This document shows, in pieces, positions 26,040-57,917 of a DNA stretch of 64,000 nt (its first letter is position 1; the number at the start of each line of letters is the position of its first letter). A model generated the notes under the pieces. That model made no database searches. It was not told where the DNA came from and saw only the letters and a list, made by a program, of their open reading frames with translations. Source of the DNA: Lachnospiraceae bacterium. GTDB lineage: Bacteria > Bacillota > Clostridia > Lachnospirales > Lachnospiraceae. The position numbers and the translations under genes were made by a program. The stretch covers positions 1 to 64,000 of the forward strand of contig JAGAPK010000062.1 in the NCBI GenBank assembly GCA_017623295.1, given 5' to 3'.

Positions 26040-26513
26040 ATGAGCAGTGTAAAAACATTAAAAGATTTTACGAATACCGATATATATAATCGTCCTACTA
26101 CATGTAAGGAATGTGAAGGTGTTATGGTTTTTAAGGGAGTCGGAGAATATCAGTGTGAAAAGTGCGGCTTCTTAGATTATGATGATTATGGCAAAGTGCG
26201 TAATTATATTGAAAAGCATCCGGGAGCAACATCTGCACAGGCAGCAGATGCAACTGGTGTAAAGCAGAAAACAATCCGTACTATGCTCAAAGAATCTCGT
26301 TTGGAAGTAGCCCCTAATTCTAAGGCATTTATTACATGTGAGATGTGTGGAATTAGTATTCGTTCCGGCAGATTGTGTTCGAAATGTGAAGTAAGTTATA
26401 ATAGAAACTATGAAGAAATGCTTCGAAGAGCACAGAATAAGATGTTAATGGGTTATAGCACGGAACGTCCGGTAGGCGAAGATGGTGCAAAACGATTTAT
26501 ACGTGAAAAATAG
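26040..26513 (+). CDS. YvyF-like zinc-ribbon/HTH protein
   Basis: The 157-residue protein has an N-terminal zinc ribbon (CKEC 18 residues before CEKC), a helix-turn-helix like section (AAQAADATGVKQKTIRTMLKESRL) and a second zinc ribbon (CEMCGISIRSGRLCSKC). This order matches the flagellar-operon protein YvyF (TIGR03826) of B. subtilis. No flagellar gene is near it. It may act as a regulator. It is followed after 43 bp by the SH3b membrane protein, so the two could share a transcript. Confidence 0.7.
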   Translation: MSSVKTLKDFTNTDIYNRPTTCKECEGVMVFKGVGEYQCEKCGFLDYDDYGKVRNYIEKHPGATSAQAADATGVKQKTIRTMLKESRLEVAPNSKAFITCEMCGISIRSGRLCSKCEVSYNRNYEEMLRRAQNKMLMGYSTERPVGEDGAKRFIREK

Positions 26514-38428: not shown

Positions 38429-40687
<2,259 letters not shown>

Positions 40688-42742: not shown

Positions 42743-44797
42743 TTAGCAGGATTCCAAAATTACAAAATCCCATCCGTTTATGGTAAGCTCATCCCCATTT
42801 TGAATGGTTTTGTTTTGCATAAGCAAGTTCCATTCGTTATCTGAGGTGCTTTGGTGAACAATTGTCTGCGCATCATCAGAGTAATTGAAATAGTAAGTGA
42901 TTTCTTTGCCAAAATCATTGATTCCCTTCTTGATAATTACAGGGAATTGTACTTCTGGCACTTCAACATCAGCTTCTGTGCATAAGAAACGAAGCATTTC
43001 CTTTAAAATAGCCTGTTCAAAATAGCATCCCAGATAAGTTGCAGTTCCTTTGCCATACTGATTATGAGTAATAGCAGCATAGCTGCCCCATTGACGATGG
43101 TCGTAAGAGGCGAGAACTTTGGCGGTAGTAGGCTGCAACAATTCCATCCAGTAATGTACACAATCTTTTGTAATATCATCAGATGCATTGTCAGAAATAT
43201 CGTTTGCTATCTGTGAAATAGCAAAACTTGTCAGACCAACATGAATCGCATCGGTAAACTGGTCATAGGTCATACCGAAACATTCGGTCAATCCATGAGG
43301 TTGGTCATCGGCATAAATTTTTAACATAGAATCGGAAAAAGCAGTTTTAAAGGTAGAAAGTAAATGTCCACCTTCTTTTACATAATTTTTCAAAGCATTT
43401 ATCAGTGCATCAGAGGCGCTGTAAAGAGCCGGAGTGATAATTATTTTGTATTGACTAAATAAGTCAGTATCGTATTCGGATAAAATATCACACTCAATAT
43501 TCAACTGATAAAGGGCATCATAAAGCCATCTAACGACATCGTTGTAATCGAAGTTGGAGTTTTCTTTTATTTTAAACCACTGTAATCCGGTTAAAGCTTC
43601 GTTTGATAAAAGCATGGCAACCGGAGCTTTTTTCTGAAGATTTTTCAAGTGACTGCCATAGTCAACGAAATCTTTACCAATCTGGCAAGCTTCTTTGTAG
43701 GTTGCATTTTCTTTCAGATTGTGGCTTAATACACCTTTCCAGTAGGATTCAATCGCATTGTGAATGGAGTGCCAGTGCCAGTACATCACAGAGTTGGAGC
43801 CGGAAGCCAGATGGCTGAATGCCTGCATGCGAAGTTGTCCCGGATAATGCAGCCAGCCGTGATTTCCCTGTGCTTCGGTTTCCAGAATTAAGTAGTTGTC
43901 TTTCTTGATAGAACGGGCAATCGCACCGCCTAAACTGATTTCAGCACCGGTCAAATCCTGAGCCGATGGATGGTAAACATCAAATCCTGCTACGGTCAAT
44001 GGCTTTGCTGCTTCCCATTGATTCACTTCGGACTGTAAGCCGTAGGAATAGCCACGCCAGCTATAATCGAAGTTCTGTGTGATGAACTGATCCGGACGAG
44101 CATATTCTTTTACAATTGCACATTGCCATGCAAGAAAATCGGTCACTAATTTACGTTGAAACTTCTGATATTCGGCACCCAGAGAGCCATTTATCGTACC
44201 GCGTACATCTGGGAAATCTTCCCAGGCATTGATGCGGTTACTCCAATAATCCAGACCAAATTCATGATTCAAGGCATCCAAATCGTTGTGGAAAATCTCT
44301 TTTAAGTATTCTACGAATTTTGCTTGTGCGTAGGAACTGCAGGTATCGTAGGATTTGGTTTCGTTATCAAGCTGGAAACCAATGATATGCTTATATGGTT
44401 TTACTTCTTCCATCAGTTTTCGAATGATGATTTCTGCATGTTTCAAATACATCGGGTGTGTAATGTCCATATTCTGACGATGTCCGTAAATGCTTTCACC
44501 ATCGTGTGTTAAAGCAAGAATATCCGGATATTTAGCAACGAGCCAGGTCGGGACCGCATAAGTCGGTGTTCCCACAATTACCTGAATGCCATGTTTCTCG
44601 GATGCTTTTAACATTCGGTGCAGATGTGTGAAATCAAAAACACCTTCCTGTGGTTCCCAGGTACTCCAGGTGGATTCTGCGATGCGGATAACATTCATAT
44701 TCGCTTTTTTCATCATTTCCATGTCTGTTTCGATTCTGTCATACGGCAGATATTCATCATAATATGCAGCCCCGAATAATAACTTATCAGTTTTCAT
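42743..44797 (-). CDS. GH42 beta-galactosidase
   Basis: The 684-residue protein has the GH42 barrel in its first 380 residues. LLFGAAYYDEYLPYDRIETD opens it, the acid/base Glu146 lies in FQLDNET, and the nucleophile candidate Glu306 in LILETEAQ. The trimerisation domain (VAMLLSNE, GHLLSTFKTA) and the C-terminal beta domain follow. There is no signal peptide. It removes terminal beta-galactose from galacto-oligosaccharides in the cytoplasm. It is divergent from the LacI gene, and a LacI-type operator lies 106 bp upstream of its start. Confidence 0.92.
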   Translation of the reverse strand: MKTDKLLFGAAYYDEYLPYDRIETDMEMMKKANMNVIRIAESTWSTWEPQEGVFDFTHLHRMLKASEKHGIQVIVGTPTYAVPTWLVAKYPDILALTHDGESIYGHRQNMDITHPMYLKHAEIIIRKLMEEVKPYKHIIGFQLDNETKSYDTCSSYAQAKFVEYLKEIFHNDLDALNHEFGLDYWSNRINAWEDFPDVRGTINGSLGAEYQKFQRKLVTDFLAWQCAIVKEYARPDQFITQNFDYSWRGYSYGLQSEVNQWEAAKPLTVAGFDVYHPSAQDLTGAEISLGGAIARSIKKDNYLILETEAQGNHGWLHYPGQLRMQAFSHLASGSNSVMYWHWHSIHNAIESYWKGVLSHNLKENATYKEACQIGKDFVDYGSHLKNLQKKAPVAMLLSNEALTGLQWFKIKENSNFDYNDVVRWLYDALYQLNIECDILSEYDTDLFSQYKIIITPALYSASDALINALKNYVKEGGHLLSTFKTAFSDSMLKIYADDQPHGLTECFGMTYDQFTDAIHVGLTSFAISQIANDISDNASDDITKDCVHYWMELLQPTTAKVLASYDHRQWGSYAAITHNQYGKGTATYLGCYFEQAILKEMLRFLCTEADVEVPEVQFPVIIKKGINDFGKEITYYFNYSDDAQTIVHQSTSDNEWNLLMQNKTIQNGDELTINGWDFVILESC

Positions 44798-44902: not shown

Positions 44903-44959
44903 CAACCGCTTGCGCAATCGTGTTAAAAAGATTATAACATGAAAAAACAAATTGGTAAA
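44903..44959. promoter_or_regulatory. GH42 promoter and LacI operator
   Basis: On the reverse strand TTTACC (44954-44959) and TATAAT (44931-44936) form a promoter with a 17-bp spacer. The operator CAACCGCTTGCGCAAT (44903-44918) follows about 12 bp downstream of the -10 box. The same word recurs before the 613-residue enzyme gene, so one LacI regulator may control both operons. Confidence 0.75.
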
Positions 44960-45014
44960 GAGATAGATTTGTTACGCGCAAAGAAGCGTGCGGTGTGCAG
45001 AAATGAGGAATGAG

Positions 45015-46037
45015 ATGGATGAGAAAAATCTGACAATCGGGGATATTGCGAGAGAATTAGGGGTGTCGAAGACCACCGTTTCCAGAGCGATTTCAGGAAA
45101 AGGAAGAATTGGAGCAGAAACAAGAGAAAAAGTTCTGCAATATATTGAAGAACACAATTACAGACCGAATGTAATTGCCAAAGGTCTTGCTCAGTCCAGA
45201 ACTTTTAATATCGGATTGGTTATGCCGGGCGACTATAATGTGGTAGAGCTTCCCTTTTTCCAGAACTGTATGTTAGGAATTAGTAAAGTGGCTTCCTCAA
45301 TGGATTATGATGTGCTGATTTCTGTTGTAACAGCGGAAGATATTTCCCAGTTACAGCGTGCGGTTATCAATCACAAGATAGATGGTGTAATTTTGACAAG
45401 AACGTTAGTAGAAGATGCACCGGCGAAATATTTGAAAGAAATGCAGATTCCTTTTGTGGCAATCGGTAGTACTGAAGACCGTTCTATTATTCAGATTGAT
45501 AACGACCATCGCAGTGCCTGTCGGGAACTTACGGAGAAGTTGCTTACACAGGGCATCAGAAAAATTGCTTTGATTGGTGGAAACCAGAGTTATATGGTTA
45601 CCAAAAACCGACTGGGCGGTTTTATGGAGGCTTATACAAGGCAGGGACTTGAGCTGGAGAAAGAACATATTTATTTGGATGTGGAAGATGGTGCAATGGT
45701 AAAAGAATTGGTGCAACGCATGATTAAGGAAGGCATAGAGTGCATCATTACAATGGATGATTACCTGTGCAGCTGTGTTTTAAATACATTACAGCAGTTA
45801 CAGATTCATGTGCCGGAGCAGGTAAAGGTTGCTTCATTCTATGACAGTTCTTTTCTGGAAAATCATGTGCCATCAATTACTTCTATTCAGTTTGATGTAG
45901 AGGAACTTGGCAGAATGACTTGCAAAACATTGCTCGGCATGATTGAAGGAGAAGCAGTACCGGAGAAATCTTTATTAGGGTATGAGATTTCTTTGCGAAA
46001 TTCAACCGAAAAAACAGTTCTTGTGCAAAATAGATAA
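45015..46037 (+). CDS. LacI-family regulator of the galactan genes
   Basis: Start at the ATG at 45015, after GAGG; GTG at 44988 and ATG at 45003 are in frame but fit the family less well. The 340-residue protein opens with a LacI helix-turn-helix (TIGDIARELGVSKTTVSRAISG) and the hinge helix NVIAKGLAQSRT, then a type-1 periplasmic-binding core (VMPGDYNVVELPFFQNCMLGI). It is divergent from the GH42 gene and next to the operators. I infer that it senses galactose or a galacto-oligosaccharide. Confidence 0.85.
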   Translation: MDEKNLTIGDIARELGVSKTTVSRAISGKGRIGAETREKVLQYIEEHNYRPNVIAKGLAQSRTFNIGLVMPGDYNVVELPFFQNCMLGISKVASSMDYDVLISVVTAEDISQLQRAVINHKIDGVILTRTLVEDAPAKYLKEMQIPFVAIGSTEDRSIIQIDNDHRSACRELTEKLLTQGIRKIALIGGNQSYMVTKNRLGGFMEAYTRQGLELEKEHIYLDVEDGAMVKELVQRMIKEGIECIITMDDYLCSCVLNTLQQLQIHVPEQVKVASFYDSSFLENHVPSITSIQFDVEELGRMTCKTLLGMIEGEAVPEKSLLGYEISLRNSTEKTVLVQNR

Positions 46038-46070: not shown

Positions 46071-46184
46071 TTGACAATTAGGGTACTGTTTGGTATTCTA
46101 AATACATGAACAACCGATTGCGCAAAACGTAACACAAAAAGTTGTCGAAACGTAGCGATATAAAAGCTCAACCGTTTGCGCATT
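46071..46184 (+). promoter_or_regulatory. Promoter and two LacI operators before the 613-residue gene
   Basis: TTGACA (46071) and TATTCT (46094) are separated by 17 bp. CAACCGATTGCGCAAA (46111-46126) and CAACCGTTTGCGCATT (46169-46184) follow downstream of the start point, so a bound repressor could block or loop. The operators are 58 bp apart. Confidence 0.75.
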
Positions 46185-46236
46185 TGGAATAGAAAACGAC
46201 ACAAAAATAGAAAAATAAATTAAAATGGAGGGTATC

Positions 46237-48078
46237 ATGGAGAACAAGTTTATTGTCAACATCATCCATCGTCCGGAAATGGTTCCTGAGTATGCAGAGA
46301 AAGTAACCGGACACGGCAAAGAAGAGGATATCGGAAGAAAAGCACTGCTGACCGAATCACTCGACATTTTCAAAACACAGCAGGAAATCGCACATAAGAA
46401 TGGACTCAAAACTACCATTCAGATGACTTATGCTTCCTTGTTTAATGACGAAGCAGTTGAACTTGCAAAAGCAGATCATGAGAAATACGGAGATGAAATC
46501 GCTTTATCTTTGCTTGGATTACCATGTGAAGAGTTCCGTGCAAAGTATAAAACAAAAGATTTCTGTATCTGGATGTTCTCTATGGAAGATAAAAAAGCCA
46601 TCGTAGATGACGTTTTTGGTAAATTCTATGATCGTTTTGGCTTCTATCCGGAATCAACAGGTTCCTATTATATGGATGCAGAATTGATTAACTATATTAA
46701 AGAAAAATATCCAATGGTAAAATGTGCAGTAGCAACCTGTTGGGAAGAAGGTCCGAAAGCATACCATACATGTAACAATTCATGGTATACATTCATGGAT
46801 GGTGGCCCTTGGGCTCCTTGGATTCCAAGTAAACAGAACGTACATGCACCGGCAGCAAATGAAGCAGAAGACAGTGGTATTGTAGCAATCCCTCATTTGT
46901 CCCGTGACTTACTTGCATGTTACGATGGAAATGGTTCTAACTTCGGAACACATCCACAGAATGTACTTCGTAGTATGAGCTATGATTCCAAGACTTGGGA
47001 ATATCCATATTTATACAACCTGATTGACCAGTATCGTGACCTTGCAAAATACAACAACGGTTATGCTTACAATATGATGTTTGTTGGACCAGGCTGGATG
47101 AACAAGATGGGACGTTGGGAAGCTCCATATGAATTACTTCTGAAATCTTATGAAGATGGTATGGCTTACTACGGACAGTTGAAAAAAGAAGGCAAACTGG
47201 ATGATATGACAATGGCTGAGTTCGCTGATTACTATCGCCAGAAAAAGACATTAACTGAGCCGGAATGTGCTCTTTGGAGAGATATTTTATACGGATCTGA
47301 CAAACAGTTATTCTGGTACTGTGACCCATTCATGCGAGTTTGTGCAAACATGGATCAGGGTGGTGCAATCGTTGATCTTAGACCATATGCAGCTAAACTG
47401 GAATGGCCGGTTGGTATCGGTACAAAACATGTAACAGATGCTTCTTATCCTTTCCTGATTCAGGAAAAATACAGAGCAGGTTACTTCACTCACTATGCAG
47501 GCGAAGGTACTGTAAGAAGTGCGAAGTTAACTTACAAGGGCGAAGAGGTTGACTTGTGTCTGTGCAGAACAAAAGCACACTTCTCACAGGAAGGAAATAC
47601 AAGAATCTTAACACTTGACCCGGTAGATATCGAATTCTATGATTTGACTGTAAAATTACAGACAAAGATGTATTTCGAAGAAGGAAGCTCCAATATTAAG
47701 ATTGAAAGAACTATTTTAGAAATGAGCGACCCTACTGCAGAAGTAGAAATCAATGAATATATGGTAGCTTGCTACGGTACAACAGAATACTCTGAAGACA
47801 TGAGTAATATCACATTGACATGTACCGATGGTACAAACAGCAAAGAAATCAAATACGCATACAAATGTCGTGAAGAACAGATGGAAGGCGCAACAGAAGT
47901 TATCTCTGTTATCCCTGAAATCGAAACAAGAGTTTCTTTAAGCTGTGAGAAGAAGGATGCAGTTGGTTACATTAAAGAAGGTTATGCATTCTCACCTATG
48001 TTTACATTAGGCTACACAACCAAGTTGAAAGATAAGGAGGTATTTGCAACATGGCTCAATCTGGCAAAGGCAAATTAA
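46237..48078 (+). CDS. Uncharacterised enzyme (613 residues) in the galactan operon
   Basis: Start is the ATG at 46237, 4 bp after GGAGGG; an ATG at 46225 lies before this site. The family is not recognised. The N-terminal ~380 residues have the look of a (beta/alpha)7 barrel like GH57, GH38 or polysaccharide deacetylases: FIVNIIHRPEM, FCIWMFSMED, GFYPESTGSYYMDAELINYIKEKY, a Trp- and Tyr-rich MDGGPWAPWIPSK and PHLSRDLLACYDG. Several Asp, Glu and His are candidates for the active site. The rest (about 400-610) is beta-rich, as in the C-terminal domains of such hydrolases. It is not secreted. Because it is under LacI control with GH53 and overlaps the zinc-ribbon gene, I infer a role in sugar breakdown. 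Confidence 0.6.
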   Translation: MENKFIVNIIHRPEMVPEYAEKVTGHGKEEDIGRKALLTESLDIFKTQQEIAHKNGLKTTIQMTYASLFNDEAVELAKADHEKYGDEIALSLLGLPCEEFRAKYKTKDFCIWMFSMEDKKAIVDDVFGKFYDRFGFYPESTGSYYMDAELINYIKEKYPMVKCAVATCWEEGPKAYHTCNNSWYTFMDGGPWAPWIPSKQNVHAPAANEAEDSGIVAIPHLSRDLLACYDGNGSNFGTHPQNVLRSMSYDSKTWEYPYLYNLIDQYRDLAKYNNGYAYNMMFVGPGWMNKMGRWEAPYELLLKSYEDGMAYYGQLKKEGKLDDMTMAEFADYYRQKKTLTEPECALWRDILYGSDKQLFWYCDPFMRVCANMDQGGAIVDLRPYAAKLEWPVGIGTKHVTDASYPFLIQEKYRAGYFTHYAGEGTVRSAKLTYKGEEVDLCLCRTKAHFSQEGNTRILTLDPVDIEFYDLTVKLQTKMYFEEGSSNIKIERTILEMSDPTAEVEINEYMVACYGTTEYSEDMSNITLTCTDGTNSKEIKYAYKCREEQMEGATEVISVIPEIETRVSLSCEKKDAVGYIKEGYAFSPMFTLGYTTKLKDKEVFATWLNLAKAN

Positions 48079-48269
48079 ATTATAGATGTCCCTCCTGTTT
48101 TATGAGAGATTTGGATATCGATATGTTTTATGATAAAGAGAAAAAGGAATATCACTGTATCCGTTGTCAGTATGTTGGAACAGAAGAAGATGTTCTGGAG
48201 AAAAATGAATTAGTAAGATTTCGTTATAAAGACGCTATGAAACGTTTTACGAAGTTTGACTTTGACTAA
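48051..48269 (+). CDS. Small zinc-ribbon protein
   Basis: The 72-residue protein starts 28 bp before the end of the 613-residue gene, with AAGGAGG 10 bp upstream. It has CPSC and CIRC spaced by 22 residues (zinc ribbon) and a basic C-terminal end (RFRYKDAMKRFTKFDFD). It may bind nucleic acid or be a partner of an enzyme. It lies between two sugar-enzyme genes, which is unusual. No known family is seen. Confidence 0.65.
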   Translation: MAQSGKGKLNYRCPSCFMRDLDIDMFYDKEKKEYHCIRCQYVGTEEDVLEKNELVRFRYKDAMKRFTKFDFD

Positions 48270-48297: not shown

Positions 48298-49410
48298 ATG
48301 GAATATATTAAAGGAATGGATATTTCAACCCTGAAAGAAGTAGAAACTCTCGGTGGAAAGTTCTATGACAAGGGTGAAGAAAAAGATGTTCTTGATATTT
48401 TAAAAAGCTATGATGTCAATTATGTACGGCTTCGTCTTTGGAATGACCCTTATTCCGAAGACGGGAAACCGTATGGTGCCGGCACAAACGACCTGCCTGT
48501 TACAATAGAGCTTGCCAAAAGAGCTCTGGCAAAAGGCATGGGATTTCTACTTGATTTGCATTACAGTGATTTCTGGGCAGATCCGGGTAAACAGCGTGTG
48601 CCGAAGGCATGGAGAGGCATGAATGAAGAACAGCTTGAACAGGCGGTCTATGATTTTACCAAAGAAACATTGGAAGCGTTGAAGGCAGCAGATGCGTATC
48701 CAACTATGATTCAGGTTGGTAATGAAGTGACAAATGGTCTGCTCTGGCCTTATGGTAAGGTGCCGAATTACGATAATATTGCAAGATTTATCAGTTCCGG
48801 TATCCGGGCAGTCAGAGCGGTAGATAAAGAAATGCCGATTATGATTCATCTGGATAATGGTGGAAATAATGCATTGTATCGTGAGTGGTTCGATCACTTT
48901 ATAGAAAAAGGTGATGACTTCCAGATTATCGGATTATCCTATTATCCGTTCTGGCATGGTTCTTTGGATGACCTCAGCAATAACATGAATGATATTGCAG
49001 TTCGCTACGGTAAAGAACTTGTAGTGGCAGAAGTTTCTATGGGATATACTATGGAAGATTATGCTTCTTATGAAAAATTAGAGCCGCATGAACGCAAAGG
49101 TATGGCAACCAAACCGGAGCTGGTAGAGAAGATTGAATATCCGATGACCAAGGAAGGCCAAAAGGCATTCTTAGAAGACTTCTTTAGCAGAATCGAAGCT
49201 GTTCCGGAAGGAAAAGGCAGAGGCTATTTCTACTGGGAAGCAGCATGGATTCCGGTAGCAGGTTCCGGCTGGGCAACGGATGAAGCACTTACTTTTATAG
49301 AAGAAAAAGGCCCATGCGGTAACGAATGGGCAAATCAGGCATTGTTTGATTATGATGGTAATGCACTTCCTGCACTTGAAGCAGTCAGAGATTATATGCC
49401 AAAAGCATAA
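48298..49410 (+). CDS. Cytoplasmic GH53 endo-galactanase
   Basis: Start at the ATG at 48298, 7 bp after GGAG; upstream in-frame starts (48256) lie inside the previous gene. The 370-residue protein is a bare GH53 domain: YVRLRLWNDPYSEDG, acid/base Glu143 in QVGNE, nucleophile Glu245 in VVAEVS, and the C-terminal FYWEAAWIPVAGSGW. There is no signal peptide, so it should act on imported galacto-oligosaccharides. The locus therefore has one outer and one inner GH53. It is the last gene of this operon and faces a LacI gene. Confidence 0.88.
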   Translation: MEYIKGMDISTLKEVETLGGKFYDKGEEKDVLDILKSYDVNYVRLRLWNDPYSEDGKPYGAGTNDLPVTIELAKRALAKGMGFLLDLHYSDFWADPGKQRVPKAWRGMNEEQLEQAVYDFTKETLEALKAADAYPTMIQVGNEVTNGLLWPYGKVPNYDNIARFISSGIRAVRAVDKEMPIMIHLDNGGNNALYREWFDHFIEKGDDFQIIGLSYYPFWHGSLDDLSNNMNDIAVRYGKELVVAEVSMGYTMEDYASYEKLEPHERKGMATKPELVEKIEYPMTKEGQKAFLEDFFSRIEAVPEGKGRGYFYWEAAWIPVAGSGWATDEALTFIEEKGPCGNEWANQALFDYDGNALPALEAVRDYMPKA

Positions 49411-50784: not shown

Positions 50785-52290
50785 ATGGGGGACATAAAAG
50801 TGGGAGCAAAACCATTAACCAGAGGAGCAGGCATATTATTATCTATTTCAAGTTTGCCATCATCTTATGGAATTGGCACATTTGGAAACGCCGCTTTCAG
50901 GTTTGTAGATTTACTGGCTGATTTAAAACAGAAATATTGGCAGATTTTGCCGATGGGACCAACCAGTATTGGTGATAGTCCATTTCAGTCACTATCTGCA
51001 TTCGCCGGGAATCCATATTTTATTGATTTGGACGACCTGATAGCAGAAGGGTTATTACAGCAGGAAGAAGTTGCTGCTTATAACTGGGGAAGCAATGATG
51101 CGAATGTAGATTATAGTATTTTGTATGAAAACAGATTTTCTGTTTTGAAATTGGCATTCGAACGGTTTAAACGGGAAGATGCCGCATATAAAGAGTTCTG
51201 TGAACAGGAACAAGATTGGTTAGAAGATTATAGTTTATTTATGGCGCTGAAGGAATTCTTTGGAAACAAGGCATGGGACCAGTGGGATAAGGCTTTGAAA
51301 GACAGAGAAGAAACAGCACTGCAGGAATATAGTGAAATTCTGAATGAACAGAGAACTTTCTGGAAGTTCTGTCAATATGAATTTTTCAAGCAGTGGAATG
51401 CACTTAAGAAATATGCAAACCGTAAAGGGGTGCAGATGATCGGCGATATGCCTTTCTATACCGCATATGATAGTGCAGATGTATGGGCACATAGAGAAAA
51501 CTTTCAATTAGATAAAGAAGGTGCAATGCACCGGGTAGCAGCAGCTCCGCCGGATGCTTTTTCCATGAAAGGACAGGTATGGGGCAATCCATTGTATGAC
51601 TGGAATCATATGGAACAGGATAAATTCTCCTGGTGGCAGAAAAGAATGGAACAATATGCTGCAATGTATGATGTAATTAAACTGGATCATTTTAATGGTA
51701 TTGTGAAATATTACAGTATGCCAGTTGGAAAAAATGATGCCAGAGATGGCAAGTGGGTAAAAGGGCCGGGCAAAAAACTGGCAGATGTACTTGTTAAAGC
51801 TGCAGATAATAAACAGATTATTGCAGAAGATATTGGAGCCGTAATACCAGCAGTCAAGAAGCTGGAACAAAAATATGACTGGTATGGCATGAAAGTAATG
51901 CTATTTGCTTTTGATGGTGATGCGGGCAATGAACATCTTCCACATAATTATACAGACACACAACTTGTTGTTTATGCCGGAACACATGACAATGATACGA
52001 TTGTTGGATATTATCGTGATAAGACAGAATATGAACTGGCATACATGTATTCTTATTTGGATGTGAATAAGAAAGAAGATATCGCAGATGCTGTTATCAG
52101 AGAAGCTTATTCCTGTATTGCAGATGTTGTTATTTTACAGATGCAGGATATTTTAGAACTTGGTAACGAAGCAAGAATGAATCAACCATCTACGGTAGGG
52201 ACAAACTGGAAATGGCGTATTTTAAATAATTCGCTTACCGAAGAAAGAAGAAACTGGATTAGGACATTGACAGCGCTTTATAAGCGGTAA
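50785..52290 (+). CDS. malQ: 4-alpha-glucanotransferase (amylomaltase)
   Basis: MalQ (GH77) moves maltodextrin segments between chains. The 501-residue protein shows RGAGILLSISSLPSSYGIGTFG, YWQILPMGPTSIGDSPFQS, IGDMPFYTAYDSADVWAH, IKLDHFNGIVKYYSMP (catalytic Asp), IIAEDIGAV (catalytic Glu) and AGTHDNDTIVGYY (Asp). A GTG at 50800 with GGGGGA upstream is another possible start, and would cut five residues. It leads the maltodextrin operon. Confidence 0.92.
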   Translation: MGDIKVGAKPLTRGAGILLSISSLPSSYGIGTFGNAAFRFVDLLADLKQKYWQILPMGPTSIGDSPFQSLSAFAGNPYFIDLDDLIAEGLLQQEEVAAYNWGSNDANVDYSILYENRFSVLKLAFERFKREDAAYKEFCEQEQDWLEDYSLFMALKEFFGNKAWDQWDKALKDREETALQEYSEILNEQRTFWKFCQYEFFKQWNALKKYANRKGVQMIGDMPFYTAYDSADVWAHRENFQLDKEGAMHRVAAAPPDAFSMKGQVWGNPLYDWNHMEQDKFSWWQKRMEQYAAMYDVIKLDHFNGIVKYYSMPVGKNDARDGKWVKGPGKKLADVLVKAADNKQIIAEDIGAVIPAVKKLEQKYDWYGMKVMLFAFDGDAGNEHLPHNYTDTQLVVYAGTHDNDTIVGYYRDKTEYELAYMYSYLDVNKKEDIADAVIREAYSCIADVVILQMQDILELGNEARMNQPSTVGTNWKWRILNNSLTEERRNWIRTLTALYKR

Positions 52291-52364
52291 TGATGGTATA
52301 AGATGCGGCAACGCATTTTATATAGAAACAAATTAAGTAACAAAGAAAGAGAGAGGAAAAAGTT

Positions 52365-53717
52365 ATGAAGAAGAAAGTATTAGCAGCATTACTTACAACA
52401 GCAATGGTTGCTACAACTCTTGTTGGATGTGGTTCTGAAACAGCAGAAACTCCAGCAGCAGAAACAACAGAAGAAGCAGCTCCTGCAGAAGAAGAAGCTC
52501 CAGCAGAAGATGCAGCAGCAGAAGAAACAACAGAAGCAGCTACAGAAGATGCAGCAGCTGATCCAGTTGCTAACTTAATCGCAGCAACAACAGATACTGT
52601 AGTTCTTACAGTATGGGCATCTGAAGAAGATCAGGAACTTACAACTACTTTGATTGAAAACTTCAAAGCAGCTTATCCAGATGTAACATTCGAAATTACA
52701 TTAGGTGCTGAATCTGAATCTACAGCAAAAGATACTATTTTAACAGACGTTGAAGCAGCAGCAGACGTATTCGCATTTGCTGATGACCAGATTAACGACT
52801 TAGTTAAAGCTGGCGCACTTCAGCCTGTATCTGCTACTTACACATATGATGTAGCAGCAGCAAACGTAGCAGGTTCTGTAGAAGCAGCAACTGTAGATGG
52901 TACTTTATATGCTTATCCTATGACAGCTGATAACGGATACTTCATGTTCTATGATGCATCTGTATTCACAGAAGATGATGTTAAAACATTAGATGGTATG
53001 TTAGCAGCAGCAGAAGCAGCTGGTAAGAAAGTAGCTATGGATATCTCCAATGGTTGGTATATCTACTCCTTCTTCCAGGGCGGTGGCTATGAATTAACAT
53101 TGAACGAAGATGGTTCTAACACATGTACATGGAATGCAGAAGGTGCAACAGATGTAGCTCAGGCTATCATGGATGCATGTGCAACAGGTACATTAGTTGA
53201 TATGAGTGATGAAGAAATGGCAACAGCTATCGCAGAAGGTACTGTAGCAGCAGCTGTAAACGGTACTTGGAGAGCAGAAACAGCTCAGGATGCTTGGGGC
53301 GAGAACTACGCTGCAACAAAACTTCCTACATTTAACGTAGCTGGTACAGAATGCCAGATGTCTTCTTACTCAGGATACAAATTAGTAGGTGTTAACCCAT
53401 ATTCTCAGAATGTAGGTTGGGCTATGTTACTTGCTGAGTACTTAACAAATGAAGAATCTCAGGCAGCTAGATTTGAAGCTAGAGGACTTGGACCTGCTAA
53501 TACAGCAGCAGCAGCTTCTGATGCAGTTCAGGCTAACCCAGCAATCGCAGCTCTTGCAGAGCAGGCAGCTTACGCTACACCTCAGCGTGTTGGTGGTAAC
53601 TTCTGGACTCCAGCAGAAACATTAGGACAGATTTTAGCTTCCGGTAATCCAGATGGAACAGACCTTCAGACAGTACTTGATACTACAGTAGAAGGTATCA
53701 CTGCTCCAATCGAATAA
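52365..53717 (+). CDS. malE: Maltodextrin ABC transporter substrate-binding lipoprotein
   Basis: The 450-residue protein has a lipobox LVGC (Cys22), an Ala/Glu/Thr-rich linker (about 25-70) and a type-I extracellular binding-protein domain with VVLTVWASEEDQELTTTLIENF, VFAFADDQINDLVKAGAL, AYPMTADNGYFMFYD and YAGYKL-like MSSYSGYKLVG. It catches maltodextrin for MalF and MalG. A strong hairpin follows before malF, which would raise its level above the permease genes. Confidence 0.88.
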   Translation: MKKKVLAALLTTAMVATTLVGCGSETAETPAAETTEEAAPAEEEAPAEDAAAEETTEAATEDAAADPVANLIAATTDTVVLTVWASEEDQELTTTLIENFKAAYPDVTFEITLGAESESTAKDTILTDVEAAADVFAFADDQINDLVKAGALQPVSATYTYDVAAANVAGSVEAATVDGTLYAYPMTADNGYFMFYDASVFTEDDVKTLDGMLAAAEAAGKKVAMDISNGWYIYSFFQGGGYELTLNEDGSNTCTWNAEGATDVAQAIMDACATGTLVDMSDEEMATAIAEGTVAAAVNGTWRAETAQDAWGENYAATKLPTFNVAGTECQMSSYSGYKLVGVNPYSQNVGWAMLLAEYLTNEESQAARFEARGLGPANTAAAASDAVQANPAIAALAEQAAYATPQRVGGNFWTPAETLGQILASGNPDGTDLQTVLDTTVEGITAPIE

Positions 53718-53749
53718 TTCATTGGACTGACGGTAGTAAATAGTTAACT

Positions 53750-53788
53750 AAATACCCCACATCCACAAGAATGTGGGGTATTTTTTTA
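53750..53788 (+). terminator. Hairpin between malE and malF
   Basis: AAATACCCCACAT pairs perfectly with ATGTGGGGTATTT (13 bp), followed by T residues. It looks like a full terminator, so malF and malG should be made from read-through. Confidence 0.85.
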
Positions 53789-53847
53789 AAAAAAGTGGCG
53801 CATAATAAGTGGGTATCACGCAAAAATAACTCTGAGAGGAGTTTTAT

Positions 53848-55275
53848 ATGATGAATAAACTTAAATCATTTGGAAATTATTTTAAAGATTTTGGAACAGC
53901 AGTAGTAAAAGGTGATATTTGGGTTAAGTTATCTCTTTTTATCATGGGCGCAGGTTACATAGCCAGAAAACAGGTTATTAACGGCTTAATCATGATTGCA
54001 TTAGAAGCTGTTTTTGCTGTCATGTGTGTATTCTATGCAGCACCAAATTTAGCCAAATTTGGCACGTTGGGAACCGTTCAGTTTGAGCAGGTTTTTGACC
54101 CATTAACGTTGACCAGTACAGTAAATGATTATGATAACTCATTCTTGATTCTATTGAATTCCATTATTTCGTTATTCATAATCCTTGCTTTTATCTTAGT
54201 ATATATTGCAAACATCAAAGCAGTGTATCGTTTGCAGAAACGCAAAGAAGAATGTCATCACATCAATACCTTCAGAGAAGACATCAAAGCGTTATTTAAT
54301 GAAAAATTTCATATTACTTTATTAACATTACCATGTATCGGTGTTGTTCTTATGAATATTATCCCGATTCTGGTATTGATTGCGATTGCATTTACAAATT
54401 ATGACCAGAATCATATGCCACCAAGTGCATTGTTTACATGGGTGGGCTGGAAGAACTTTAAGTCGCTTTTCACAAACTCCACAACAGTAACCTTTGGTTA
54501 TTCCTTTGGTAAGGTTCTTGTATGGACATTGGAATGGGCGTTCCTTGCAACCTTCACAACCTTTATTGGTGGTATTTTGATGGCACAGTTCATCAATAGC
54601 AAAAATACAAAATGGCCTAAAATGTGGAGAACATTATTCATGGTTGCGATTGCAGTACCACAGTTCGTAACATTACTGCTTGTTCGTAACTTCTTCGCAG
54701 ATACAGGTATCGTAAATACAATCTGTTCTAATATTGGATTAACAGATTTCTTGAAAGATATTGGTCTGGTAAGTAGTCATCTGACTTATATACCATTCCT
54801 GACAAGTCCTGGATGGGCTAAAGTTATGATTGTAATTATCAATATCTGGGTTGGTATTCCTTATCAGATGTTGGTTGCAACCGGTGTGTTAATGAATATC
54901 CCGACAGACCAGATTGAAAGTGCAAGAATCGATGGTGCAAACAGATTTCAGATTTTTGTTAAGATTACAATGCCATACGTGCTCTTCATTACAGGTCCAA
55001 GTTTGATTACGGACTTTGTAAAGAATATTAATAACTTTAACGTTATTTATCTGTTAACACAGGATGTTTATGTTACATCTGACCAGTTGCTTGCAAACTC
55101 CAATGCAAAAGAAGTTGACTTGCTTGTTACATGGTTGTTCCGCTTGACAAATGAATATTACAACTACAAGATGGCATCTGTTATCGGTATTATTGTATTT
55201 ATTATCTGTGCAGCGTTTACTTTAATAACCTTTACACAGATGATTAAAGGCAACAGAGAGGAGGATTTCCAATAA
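53848..55275 (+). CDS. malF: Maltodextrin ABC permease MalF
   Basis: The 475-residue protein has about eight membrane segments, of which the first two, with a loop of about 60 residues, come before the core. The core ends with the permease EAA motif IESARIDGANRFQIFVKITMP, which contacts the ATPase. The length and the extra N-terminal helices match MalF. malG begins at the last base of its stop codon (TAATG), so translation is coupled. No ATPase gene is in the operon; MsiK or MalK must come from elsewhere. Confidence 0.9.
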   Translation: MMNKLKSFGNYFKDFGTAVVKGDIWVKLSLFIMGAGYIARKQVINGLIMIALEAVFAVMCVFYAAPNLAKFGTLGTVQFEQVFDPLTLTSTVNDYDNSFLILLNSIISLFIILAFILVYIANIKAVYRLQKRKEECHHINTFREDIKALFNEKFHITLLTLPCIGVVLMNIIPILVLIAIAFTNYDQNHMPPSALFTWVGWKNFKSLFTNSTTVTFGYSFGKVLVWTLEWAFLATFTTFIGGILMAQFINSKNTKWPKMWRTLFMVAIAVPQFVTLLLVRNFFADTGIVNTICSNIGLTDFLKDIGLVSSHLTYIPFLTSPGWAKVMIVIINIWVGIPYQMLVATGVLMNIPTDQIESARIDGANRFQIFVKITMPYVLFITGPSLITDFVKNINNFNVIYLLTQDVYVTSDQLLANSNAKEVDLLVTWLFRLTNEYYNYKMASVIGIIVFIICAAFTLITFTQMIKGNREEDFQ

Positions 55276-56117
55276 TGAAAAAGACAGTAGGATTTGTTAC
55301 AAGACATTTATTTTTGGCGTTCCTCGTAGTGATATGGTTGATTCCGATTCTTTGGTTAGTAGTTACATCCTTCAGTGGATATAGAGGAATTAATACAGCA
55401 CACTTCTTCCCAGAGACATGGTCCTTAGATAATTACAAGGCATTGTTCTTTGAACCGGATTCTGTTGTGCAGTATGTAGCATGGTTTAAAAATACTTTGA
55501 TTATTGCGATTTTTACCTGTATTATTTCTACTATTTTCGTATTGATGGTAAGTTATACAATGAGCTGTCTGCGATTCAAAGGTAGAAAAGGATTAATGAG
55601 CTTTGGTATCATTTTAAACATGTTCCCTGGCGTATTATCCATGATTGCGGTATATTTCGTAATGAAATCTTTAGGACTTACAAACAGTCACTTAGGTATG
55701 ATTATTGTATATTCCGCCGGTTCCGGTCTGGGATACCTGATTACCAAAGGTTTCATGGATACAATTTCGGTATCTCTTCGTGAAGCTGCAAGACTTGAAG
55801 GTGCTTCCGAAGCAACCATTTTCTTACGGATTATTATTCCGTTATCAAGACCAATGATTGTTTATACCGTTATTAACTCTTTCCTGGTACCTTGGGGTGA
55901 CTTCGTACTTGCGAAATTGATGTTAAACTCCGGTATTTCAACAGACTGGACAATTGCAATCGGTCTTTTCAATATGTTAGGTAGATCCTTGATTAACAAA
56001 TACTTCTCAATCTTCTGTGCGGGCGGTGTTATCGTTTCTATTCCGATTTCTATCTTGTTCGTATTGATGCAGAAGTTCTATGTAGAAGGTGTAACCGGTG
56101 GTTCTGTAAAAGGTTAA
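55275..56117 (+). CDS. malG: Maltodextrin ABC permease MalG
   Basis: The 280-residue protein has six membrane segments and the EAA motif SLREAARLEGASEATIFLRII, plus the C-terminal IVSIPISILFVLMQKFYVEGVTGGSVKG that is typical of MalG. It starts at the last base of the malF stop. It should pair with MalF. Confidence 0.93.
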   Translation: MKKTVGFVTRHLFLAFLVVIWLIPILWLVVTSFSGYRGINTAHFFPETWSLDNYKALFFEPDSVVQYVAWFKNTLIIAIFTCIISTIFVLMVSYTMSCLRFKGRKGLMSFGIILNMFPGVLSMIAVYFVMKSLGLTNSHLGMIIVYSAGSGLGYLITKGFMDTISVSLREAARLEGASEATIFLRIIIPLSRPMIVYTVINSFLVPWGDFVLAKLMLNSGISTDWTIAIGLFNMLGRSLINKYFSIFCAGGVIVSIPISILFVLMQKFYVEGVTGGSVKG

Positions 56118-56143
56118 TGATTGCATCTTAAAGGTAAAAATAG

Positions 56144-56178
56144 AATGCAGGCTGTCTTAGGGCGGTCTGCATTTTTTG
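56144..56178 (+). terminator. Terminator-like hairpin before the amylase gene
   Basis: AATGCAG pairs with CTGCATT (7 bp), followed by TTTTT. It lies within the gap between malG and the amylase gene and could lower amylase expression. Confidence 0.6.
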
Positions 56179-56198
56179 AATCAAAGGGAGAGTGTGAA

Positions 56199-57917
56199 AT
56201 GATGAAGAAAAAAATGGCAGGGCTTTTGTGTGCCTGTATGATACTTCCGACATTCCTTACGTCATGTGGAAAGGAAACCGGAACAGAAAGCACGGCAGAT
56301 GCGGTGGCAGCTGAGGATGGAGCAGAAGATACGGCAGATGCGGTGGTAGCTGAGGATGCCGCTGAAAGCGTAGACATAACGGATACAATTCCGCTGAATA
56401 TAGTAGATGATAATTATCGTACCTATTATGAGGTTTTTGTGTATTCCTTCTGTGATAGCGATGGAGACGGTATTGGAGATATTCAGGGGCTTATTTCCAA
56501 ACTGGATTATATCAATGACGGTGACGATACAACAGATAGCGATTTGGGATTTAATGGTATCTGGCTGATGCCGATAAATCCATCCCCTACATATCATAAG
56601 TATGATGTGATGGATTATTATGAGATTGATCCGGCATATGGTACATTAGATGATTTCAAACAACTTATAGAAGAGTGTGATAAACGTGGAATCAAAGTCA
56701 TTATGGATTTGGTGCTGAATCATTCTTCTTCTCAGAACCCTTGGTTTTTAGAGGCTTACAGTTATTTGCAGGAGCTTGGTGATGGCGAACCGAATGTGGA
56801 AGAGTGTCCGTATTTTGAATATTATCATTTTTCTAAGGAAAAAGGTGCAGGCTGTTATGAAGTGGCAGGAACAGACTGGTATTATGAAGCACAGTTCTGG
56901 AGTGAAATGCCTGATTTAAATCTGGATTGCGAACCCCTTCGGACAGAAATTCAAAGTATAGCGGAATACTGGCTGGATATGGGCGTAGGAGGCTTTAGAC
57001 TGGATGCAGTGAAAGAATATTACACCGGAAGTCCACAGGCGAATATAGACTTCTTAAACTGGTTTCAGGGCATTGTAAGAGCAAAGGATGAAGATGCGTA
57101 TCTGGTTGGCGAAGCATGGCTTGCTATGACCGATTATGCGCAGTATTACAGCAGTGGCATTGATAGTGTATTCAATTTTGCGTTCGCAGACAAAGAAGGA
57201 ATTATTTCTAAGGTTGTCAGAGGGGGCTCGGCAAGCAGTTATGGAGAAGCTGTTGCATCCTTAGAGGATACTTTTGGAAAATACAATGAAAATTATATTG
57301 ATGCACCATTCTATACTAATCACGATATGGGAAGAAGTGCCGGATATTATGCAGGTGATAATTCGGAATATCAGACCAAAATAGCAGGTGCCATGAACTT
57401 ATTTATGAATGGCTCAGCATTTGTATATTACGGTGAGGAGTTGGGAATGAAGGGCTCCGGTAAAGATGAAAATAAGCGTGCACCAATGTATTGGAGTATG
57501 AATGCAGATGCGGAAGGTATGTGTGATGGACCGACGGACATGGATAATGTCAAAATGAAGTTTGAGAGTCTGGAAGAACAGCAGCAGGATGAAGGTTCTA
57601 TCTATAATTACTATAAAAAAGCAATTAAGATCAGAAATCAGAATCCGGAAATTGCAAGAGGCGATGTAGAGTATATGGAAGAATTATCCGGTGAAACATT
57701 CTGTGTTCTGAAAAAGACTTATGAAGAGTCTGAAATTATATTACTTTTCCATCTGGGTGCTGAAACAGAAGAAATTGATTTGTCTGGTGTTACTGTGAAT
57801 GGAAAAGAAATTTCGTCAGAGAGTATTCGTGGCACATTAGAAAGCGGCGAAGAGAAAATAGCTATGACAGAAACAAAAGTAAGTATGCCGGGATATTCCG
57901 TGCTTGTATTGAAATAA
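56199..57917 (+). CDS. GH13 alpha-amylase-type lipoprotein
   Basis: Start at the ATG at 56199, 8 bp after GGGAG; an upstream TTG at 56121 lies in the gap. The 572-residue protein has a lipobox TSCG, a linker with a tandem repeat of about 13 residues (TADAV-AED-AED) and a GH13 barrel: YEVFVYSFCDSDGDGIGDI, VIMDLVLNHSSSQ, GFRLDAV with nucleophile Asp269, VGEAW with Glu305 and TNHDMGRS with Asp376. It should cut starch or maltodextrin at the cell surface. The C-terminal beta domain closes it. It ends the operon. Confidence 0.9.
   Translation: MMKKKMAGLLCACMILPTFLTSCGKETGTESTADAVAAEDGAEDTADAVVAEDAAESVDITDTIPLNIVDDNYRTYYEVFVYSFCDSDGDGIGDIQGLISKLDYINDGDDTTDSDLGFNGIWLMPINPSPTYHKYDVMDYYEIDPAYGTLDDFKQLIEECDKRGIKVIMDLVLNHSSSQNPWFLEAYSYLQELGDGEPNVEECPYFEYYHFSKEKGAGCYEVAGTDWYYEAQFWSEMPDLNLDCEPLRTEIQSIAEYWLDMGVGGFRLDAVKEYYTGSPQANIDFLNWFQGIVRAKDEDAYLVGEAWLAMTDYAQYYSSGIDSVFNFAFADKEGIISKVVRGGSASSYGEAVASLEDTFGKYNENYIDAPFYTNHDMGRSAGYYAGDNSEYQTKIAGAMNLFMNGSAFVYYGEELGMKGSGKDENKRAPMYWSMNADAEGMCDGPTDMDNVKMKFESLEEQQQDEGSIYNYYKKAIKIRNQNPEIARGDVEYMEELSGETFCVLKKTYEESEIILLFHLGAETEEIDLSGVTVNGKEISSESIRGTLESGEEKIAMTETKVSMPGYSVLVLK

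Follow-up and report, generated by a model that had tools for sequence, protein, structure and literature searches.

A conserved pair of overlapping genes for a predicted barrel enzyme and a zinc-ribbon protein in galactan loci of Lachnospiraceae

Two overlapping genes, and not one, form a conserved unit in a galactan locus of a Lachnospiraceae bacterium. The locus lies in the 64,000-nucleotide stretch of DNA analysed here (contig JAGAPK010000062.1; the window), in which an open reading frame (ORF) of 613 residues had been singled out from the sequence as an unrecognised enzyme of a galactan operon. That ORF was confirmed, along with its ribosome-binding site, and its product is given the working name Q613. 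The original prediction was incomplete in treating the gene as standing alone, since it missed the ORF of a 72-residue zinc-ribbon protein, ZR, which overlaps the 3' end of Q613. The most economical reading of the location, regulation, partners and fold of Q613 is that it acts as a cytoplasmic exo-acting glycosidase, freeing galactose from those short beta-1,4-galacto-oligosaccharides that remain after GH53 galactanase has acted, a proposal to which we assign a probability of about 0.42.

The ZR gene is read in a different frame from Q613, carries its own Shine-Dalgarno sequence within Q613 codons (Table 1), and is located between Q613 and a GH53 gene in the window. Both genes were located by profile in loci L001-L128, where a Q613 cut-off of at least 150 bits gave 118 loci; this set includes the window itself twice and several loci from the same genomes, and its counts are not independent. 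A broken C-terminal fragment (L118), which matched neither profile, was left out. ZR overlaps Q613 in 116 of the 118 loci, and in the other two (L013 and L020) the contig ends after only 56 and 42 nucleotides. All 116 ZR genes start with ATG, and a Shine-Dalgarno-like string is found upstream inside the Q613 codons in 114 of them, taking the form AGGAGG in 102. The overlap measures 28 nucleotides in 108 loci, 34 in four, 31 in three and 19 in one. Because all of these lengths are 1 modulo 3, a programmed frameshift fusing the two proteins was considered; it was set aside in view of the ATG and Shine-Dalgarno-like strings, and inspection by eye revealed no slippery site. The pair is also complete in five of five further loci (L179-L183) and is kept in eight relatives of roughly 32-36% identity (L111-L117 and L126). 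ZR itself has four invariant cysteines (C13, C16, C36 and C39) in a zinc-ribbon pattern across 16 sequences. Its matches in Pfam and NCBIfam are weak ones to zinc-ribbon families, all under the cut-offs, and its structure model is modest (predicted local distance difference test, pLDDT, 74.9), with no fold match at E<=0.001.

Q613 (70.4 kDa, pI 5.0) has the ribosome-binding site GGAGGG immediately 5' of its ATG at 46237; an alternative in-frame ATG at 46225 would give 617 residues but overlaps that site. The N terminus is without a hydrophobic stretch, the highest 15-residue mean hydropathy within the first 60 residues being 0.28, and the protein is therefore predicted to be cytoplasmic, in line with the earlier statement that it is not secreted. 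A secreted enzyme was rejected for want of a secretion signal. The richness in aromatic residues that had drawn attention is real (F+W+Y 13.2%, compared with 5.7% in RadA), though the GH53 neighbour equals it at 13.0%. Q613 had no match in Pfam (E<=1), NCBIfam (E<=10) or PDB sequences (E<=10), which bears out its description as unrecognised; no clear match to a known family with another role emerged from Pfam or NCBIfam. A search of 5.8 billion proteins returned 2,467 relatives at E<=1e-3 among 7,997 scored candidates, placing the ORF far beyond chance. The best 120 of these matches are 82-94% identical, and every name given to them by their sources is hypothetical protein.

Structure prediction, suggested earlier as a check, returned a confident two-domain AlphaFold2 model (pLDDT 91.6; predicted template modelling score 0.92). 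In this model and its fold matches, the N-terminal domain (about residues 1-340) is a (beta/alpha)7-type barrel of the CE4-deacetylase/GH57 type, and the C-terminal domain (about residues 351-613) is a mutarotase-like beta-supersandwich, with fold similarity to mutarotases over about residues 341-613; a barrel of carbohydrate enzymes is thus joined to a beta-sandwich of sugar enzymes, in keeping with the glycosidase proposal. The nearest structure is 3LM3, which has the overall fold in common with Q613, while the second Foldseek match, the GH57 4-alpha-glucanotransferase 1K1X, spans both domains with a poor root-mean-square deviation. The family motifs are CxEEG and PHLSRD. Across 135 sequences C168, E170, E171, H220, R223 and D224 are invariant, as are the basic residues H239 and R245; in a wider alignment of 15 sequences D224 and C168 remain invariant, and position E170 is always E or D. 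In the model strands 5 and 6 end at E170/E171 and D224, which are predicted to make up a new active site.

The galactan context noted for the window proved common across the family. A scan of 84,980 species genomes gave at least 592 stretches, at least 585 of which encode a Q613 relative, and 80 loci were kept. A same-strand GH53 gene lies within 1.5 kb of Q613 in 74 of the 80 loci (66 downstream and nine upstream, with one locus having both), and three of the six loci without one end within 312 nucleotides of Q613. GH42 is present in 29 of these loci, GH2 in 14 and either of them in 40. Among 200 genomes of the bacterial family, Q613 matched 26, of which two with weak N-terminal matches (G812 and G849) were dropped to leave 24, and GH53 matched 45, of which five weak ones (G350, G368, G870, G874 and G970) were dropped to leave 40. 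Both were found in 21 genomes, Q613 alone in three, GH53 alone in 19 and neither in 157 (Fisher p 1.4e-14). Counting GH53 frames of 350-410 residues only, a cut picked after the list was seen, the corresponding numbers are 20, 4, 1 and 175 (p 1.4e-22). Both p-values overstate the case because related genomes are not independent. By coordinates, GH53 is within 3 kb of Q613 in 19 of the 24 genomes.

The regulatory sequences point in the same direction. Three exact copies of the palindromic LacI-type operator CAACCGNTTGCGCA occur in the window, two of them upstream of Q613, as had been claimed, and the third in the intergenic region common to GH42 and lacI (Table 1). Six window sites match with at most two mismatches, compared with an average of 0.97 in shuffles. 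In the draft genome (2.78 Mb, 87.75% complete) there are three exact operators, all at the galactan locus, and four more with one mismatch, while the reversed control pattern gave no site. Of the 78 loci with enough upstream sequence, 55 have the operator no more than 350 bp ahead of Q613. Among the other 23, Q613 stands behind transporter genes in eight (L049, L050, L054, L055, L059, L066, L070 and L071), and there the operator may be further upstream. The product of the window lacI is presumed to bind all three operators, and a relative of this gene is present in 60 of the 80 loci.

Within the genus, conservation of Q613 exceeds that of both housekeeping proteins used for comparison, RadA and ClpC. 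Median identity to the window over 20 congeneric genomes is 93.2% for Q613, 97.2% for ZR and 81.0% for RadA, with 74.3% for GH53 (17 genomes) and a within-genus range of 83-94% for ClpC. Divergence at four-fold degenerate sites in congeneric genomes is 0.68 for Q613, 0.72 for GH53, 0.69 for RadA and 0.47 for ZR, which has just 15-17 such sites, some of them inside the Q613 overlap. In most pairs, then, the protein is constant but the DNA is not, which argues for strong purifying selection and not for recent transfer; recent horizontal transfer was rejected as a general cause on the median values of Q613 and RadA over the 20 genomes. The exception is the nearest genome (G024), in which four-fold divergence is 0.23 in Q613 versus 0.49 in RadA and 0.47 in GH53. 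Conservation above that of RadA and ClpC at saturated synonymous sites is, as a separate observation, unusual for an accessory sugar gene. Codon use suggests high expression: Q613 has no ATA codon, and the C-ending fraction of its Phe, Tyr and Asn codons, 0.52, is nearer to that of the solute-binding protein (0.64) than to that of GH53 (0.27).

The predicted pathway begins with a surface GH53, whose oligosaccharide products an ATP-binding cassette transporter imports and a cytoplasmic GH53 shortens. Q613 would bind the ends of these oligosaccharides in a pocket between the CE4/GH57-type barrel and the mutarotase-like domain and cleave off galactose by means of the acidic residues in which strands 5 and 6 end (E170 or E171, with D224). 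The remainder would be cleared by GH42 or GH2, and the galactose would enter the GalK/GalT route. ZR, made from its own ribosome-binding site, is predicted to serve Q613 as a subunit or in its assembly, and LacI would repress the Q613-ZR unit until a galactan-derived sugar appears.

Several observations weigh against this proposal. It leaves the presence of GH42 and the ZR partner unexplained; GH42 hydrolyses such beta-galactoside links in principle, so a second galactosidase looks redundant. Rare neighbours of Q613 include galK (two of the 80 loci) and galT (three). A strong GH53 match is missing from three of the 24 genomes with Q613 in the bacterial family (G932, G854 and G822), in each of which two permease genes precede Q613; a melibiase-like gene adjoins it in G932 (L181), GH42 is nearby in G854 (L180), and in G822 (L179) the protein encoded near it has 2,209 residues and no catalytic Pfam domain. 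The codon signal is not unique, the C-ending fraction being comparable to that of Q613 in a permease (0.60), the 760-residue ORF (0.54) and GH42 (0.45). Position E170 is not retained in 3LM3 as aligned, and a forced GH57 profile alignment, with an alignment probability of about 1%, puts no acids at the catalytic positions in Q613. Relatives of 32-36% identity have mixed neighbours: PL8 in L136, GH31, GH78 and a GH42-cluster gene in L139, a raffinose-synthase-like gene in L142, and AMP-binding enzymes, a P-type ATPase and a DUF6259 protein, with no recognised glycosidase beside them, in L140. Given this mixture, beta-1,4-galactan cannot be what all members of the family act on.

The rival worked out in most detail is that Q613 is a phosphorylase, converting beta-1,4-galacto-oligosaccharides and phosphate to galactose-1-phosphate for direct use by GalT. 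The invariant basic residues H220, R223, H239 and R245 stand beside the acids, as an anion site would need, and the predicted cytoplasmic location fits as well. In L182 (L182:7141-10677) Q613, ZR and galT follow in a row, galT directly after ZR with no GH53 nearby, and galK was not found in the 17-kb stretch. Elsewhere, however, galK accompanies galT, in L061 and, following GH53, in L055, and galactokinase directly follows a distant 510-residue relative (about 20% identity) in L152:6171-8944 and L154:8136-10909, two genomes of one genus whose relatives form another unnamed family. Though few, these galK neighbours speak for free galactose, and no phosphorylase family matched Q613 in Pfam or NCBIfam; we regard a phosphorylase as rather improbable. 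Slightly less improbable, yet still unlikely, is a different reaction, on galactose itself or on a product containing it, such as isomerisation, epimerisation or removal of an acyl group. Q613 has neither the Asp after strand 1 nor the His pair after strand 3 that CE4 enzymes need; the supersandwich domain, moreover, is a common non-catalytic part of glycosidases.

It is also conceivable that Q613 and ZR form a sugar-sensing or assembly complex with no enzymatic role, in which ZR would contact nucleic acid. ZR is weakly similar to zinc ribbons of the nucleic-acid type, none of them significantly, and the extreme constraint on Q613 fits a protein with many contacts. The constrained residues, however, include polar ones at the barrel end of the kind that catalytic sites usually have, Q613 is folded like an enzyme, and a LacI regulator is already at the locus. 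This is the least probable of the alternatives and a decidedly poor bet. Extending the glycosidase proposal, one may speculate that Q613 and ZR make up a two-component glycan-cleaving enzyme, the first to pair a CE4/GH57-type barrel that has a new catalytic site with a dedicated zinc-ribbon subunit. This enzyme, and not GH42, would then handle most of the cytoplasmic beta-1,4-galactan flux in gut Lachnospiraceae, and its wider family would act likewise on further glycans that contain galactose. We consider this broader scheme doubtful, though worth serious attention.

Table 1. Features of the galactan locus, with positions in the window
Feature	Position	Strand	Basis and remarks
Q613	46237..48078	+	ORF, stop codon included; AlphaFold2 model; fold matches
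ZR, 72-residue zinc-ribbon protein	48051..48269	+	ORF overlapping Q613 3' end by 28 nucleotides, other frame; 16-sequence alignment
Shine-Dalgarno AGGAGG of ZR	48035..48040	+	Sequence; embedded in Q613 codons
LacI-type operator 1 (CAACCGATTGCGCA)	46111..46124	+	Pattern search
LacI-type operator 2 (CAACCGTTTGCGCA)	46169..46182	+	Pattern search
LacI-type operator 3, divergent GH42/lacI intergenic region	44903..44916	+	Pattern search
LacI-family regulator	44988..46037	+	PF00356 E 8e-17, PF00532/PF13377; presumed binder of the three operators
GH53 endo-beta-1,4-galactanase	48298..49410	+	PF07745 E 5e-119; no evident secretion signal (by eye); listed ORF start TTG at 48256
GH42 beta-galactosidase, divergent, sharing operator 3	42743..44797	-	PF02449 E 1.7e-71
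GH53 with lipoprotein-like N terminus and Big_4 domain	38441..40687	+	PF07745 E 2.5e-122, PF07532 E 3.4e-10; putative surface location

Judged by its sequence features, the GH53 with the lipoprotein-like N terminus is presumed to be an outer-surface galactanase. Further along the same strand, 50785-57917 carries malQ and the genes of a solute-binding protein, of two permeases and of a GH13 enzyme. In L001-L048 the MalF-like permease of this region is either at least 81% or about 45% identical, as if two transporter types alternate. The ORF at 26040-26513 has several CxxC pairs and appears zinc-ribbon-like by eye.

Q613 was found in 20 of 24 congeneric genomes (no match in G009, G015, G022 and G023), in none of 16 genomes from other families of the order, and in 24 of 391 genomes of the class when weak and partial matches are counted, nine of them at E<=1e-270; in a phylum sample of 398 genomes it occurred only in its own genome. 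The gene is also present in records of Roseburia hominis and Eubacterium ruminantium. Close copies (97 and 85%) are present in L001 and L079, from records titled Muribaculaceae or Alistipes, and a relative in P0232, from a record titled Anaeromyxobacteraceae; such records titled outside Clostridia may be binning errors or mis-binned contigs. In G830 the gene is split between G830:C60:21450-22097 (profile residues 2-201) and G830:C96:3-1295 (165-593), through an assembly break or a second copy. The relative of about 35% identity in L136:2891-10465 has a PL8 lyase and an AraC-type regulator for neighbours, a context which suggests that further glycans may be among the substrates of the family, and other divergent relatives adjoin regulators and transporters. 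The L126 relative has a Pfam match to PRiA4_ORF3 (E 0.0007) under the cut-off.

Lachnospiraceae rank among the major fermenters of gut and rumen, and pectic galactan is one of the dietary fibres. The number of loci (at least 585), the hypothetical-protein names and the conservation above ClpC and RadA together indicate that current pathway maps probably lack a step of fibre use, and that an enzyme still without a name probably takes part in this common gut pathway for galactan. The fold is known, while the family, its motifs, the ZR partner and the role appear to be new: no description of them was found in Pfam, NCBIfam, PDB or the literature, in searches that did not cover CAZy and took in articles largely by title and abstract start. 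The same literature searches gave no mention of DUF3863, DUF3864, PF12979 or PF12980 and nothing apparently relevant on 3LM3/BDI_3119. Two studies of GH53 loci and growth on galactan include hypothetical genes in their drawings, unnamed in the portions of these articles consulted (PMC5320581; PMC4230839). If its active site is indeed new, the family would offer a testable case of how a well-studied barrel gains new chemistry, and a zinc-ribbon partner, if true, would be unusual for a sugar enzyme.

Comparison with known systems places Q613 near several families and supports its membership of none. The GH57/deacetylase-like look of the original prediction holds as a description of the fold, the GH57-type (beta/alpha)7 barrel being present in the model, but finds no support as one of membership in GH57 or CE4. 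In GH57 enzymes, which act on alpha-glucans, the catalytic Glu follows strand 4 and the catalytic Asp strand 7. Q613 has no Pfam match to GH57 (PF03065) at E<=1, two relatives have sub-threshold matches of about 30 residues (E 0.06-0.08), and profile comparison gave a probability of 0.7-1.4%; membership was rejected on these grounds, and unlike 1K1X, the amylopullulanases and the branching enzymes, Q613 has no evident GH57 nucleophile and acid. CE4 polysaccharide deacetylases need a catalytic Asp and an Asp-His-His metal set. Compared with 3QBU and 1Z7A, Q613 has an extra C-terminal domain and is without the catalytic Asp and the His-His metal set, the segment after strand 1 reading NIIHRPE, and CE4 was rejected on inspection of conserved columns and model. 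The nearest structure, 3LM3 (BDI_3119 of Parabacteroides distasonis), is an uncharacterised structural-genomics protein titled putative glycoside hydrolase/deacetylase, which we take to be DUF3863/DUF3864; it is 16% identical to Q613 and, as aligned, has neither CxEEG nor PHLSRD. Q613 has no Pfam match to DUF3863 (PF12979). That label is precomputed on four of 120 listed relatives, none of which kept it on rescanning, and a search for PF12979 was uninformative, with no match in 148 genomes nor in 14 controls. Finally, relatives of 500-800 residues (L119, L122, L124, L125, L128, L150 and L151), in whose short loci no ZR homologue was found, differ from Q613 in their C-terminal half and lack EEG and PHLSRD, but at about 20% identity they share with it C168, P197, D224, W287 and E328.
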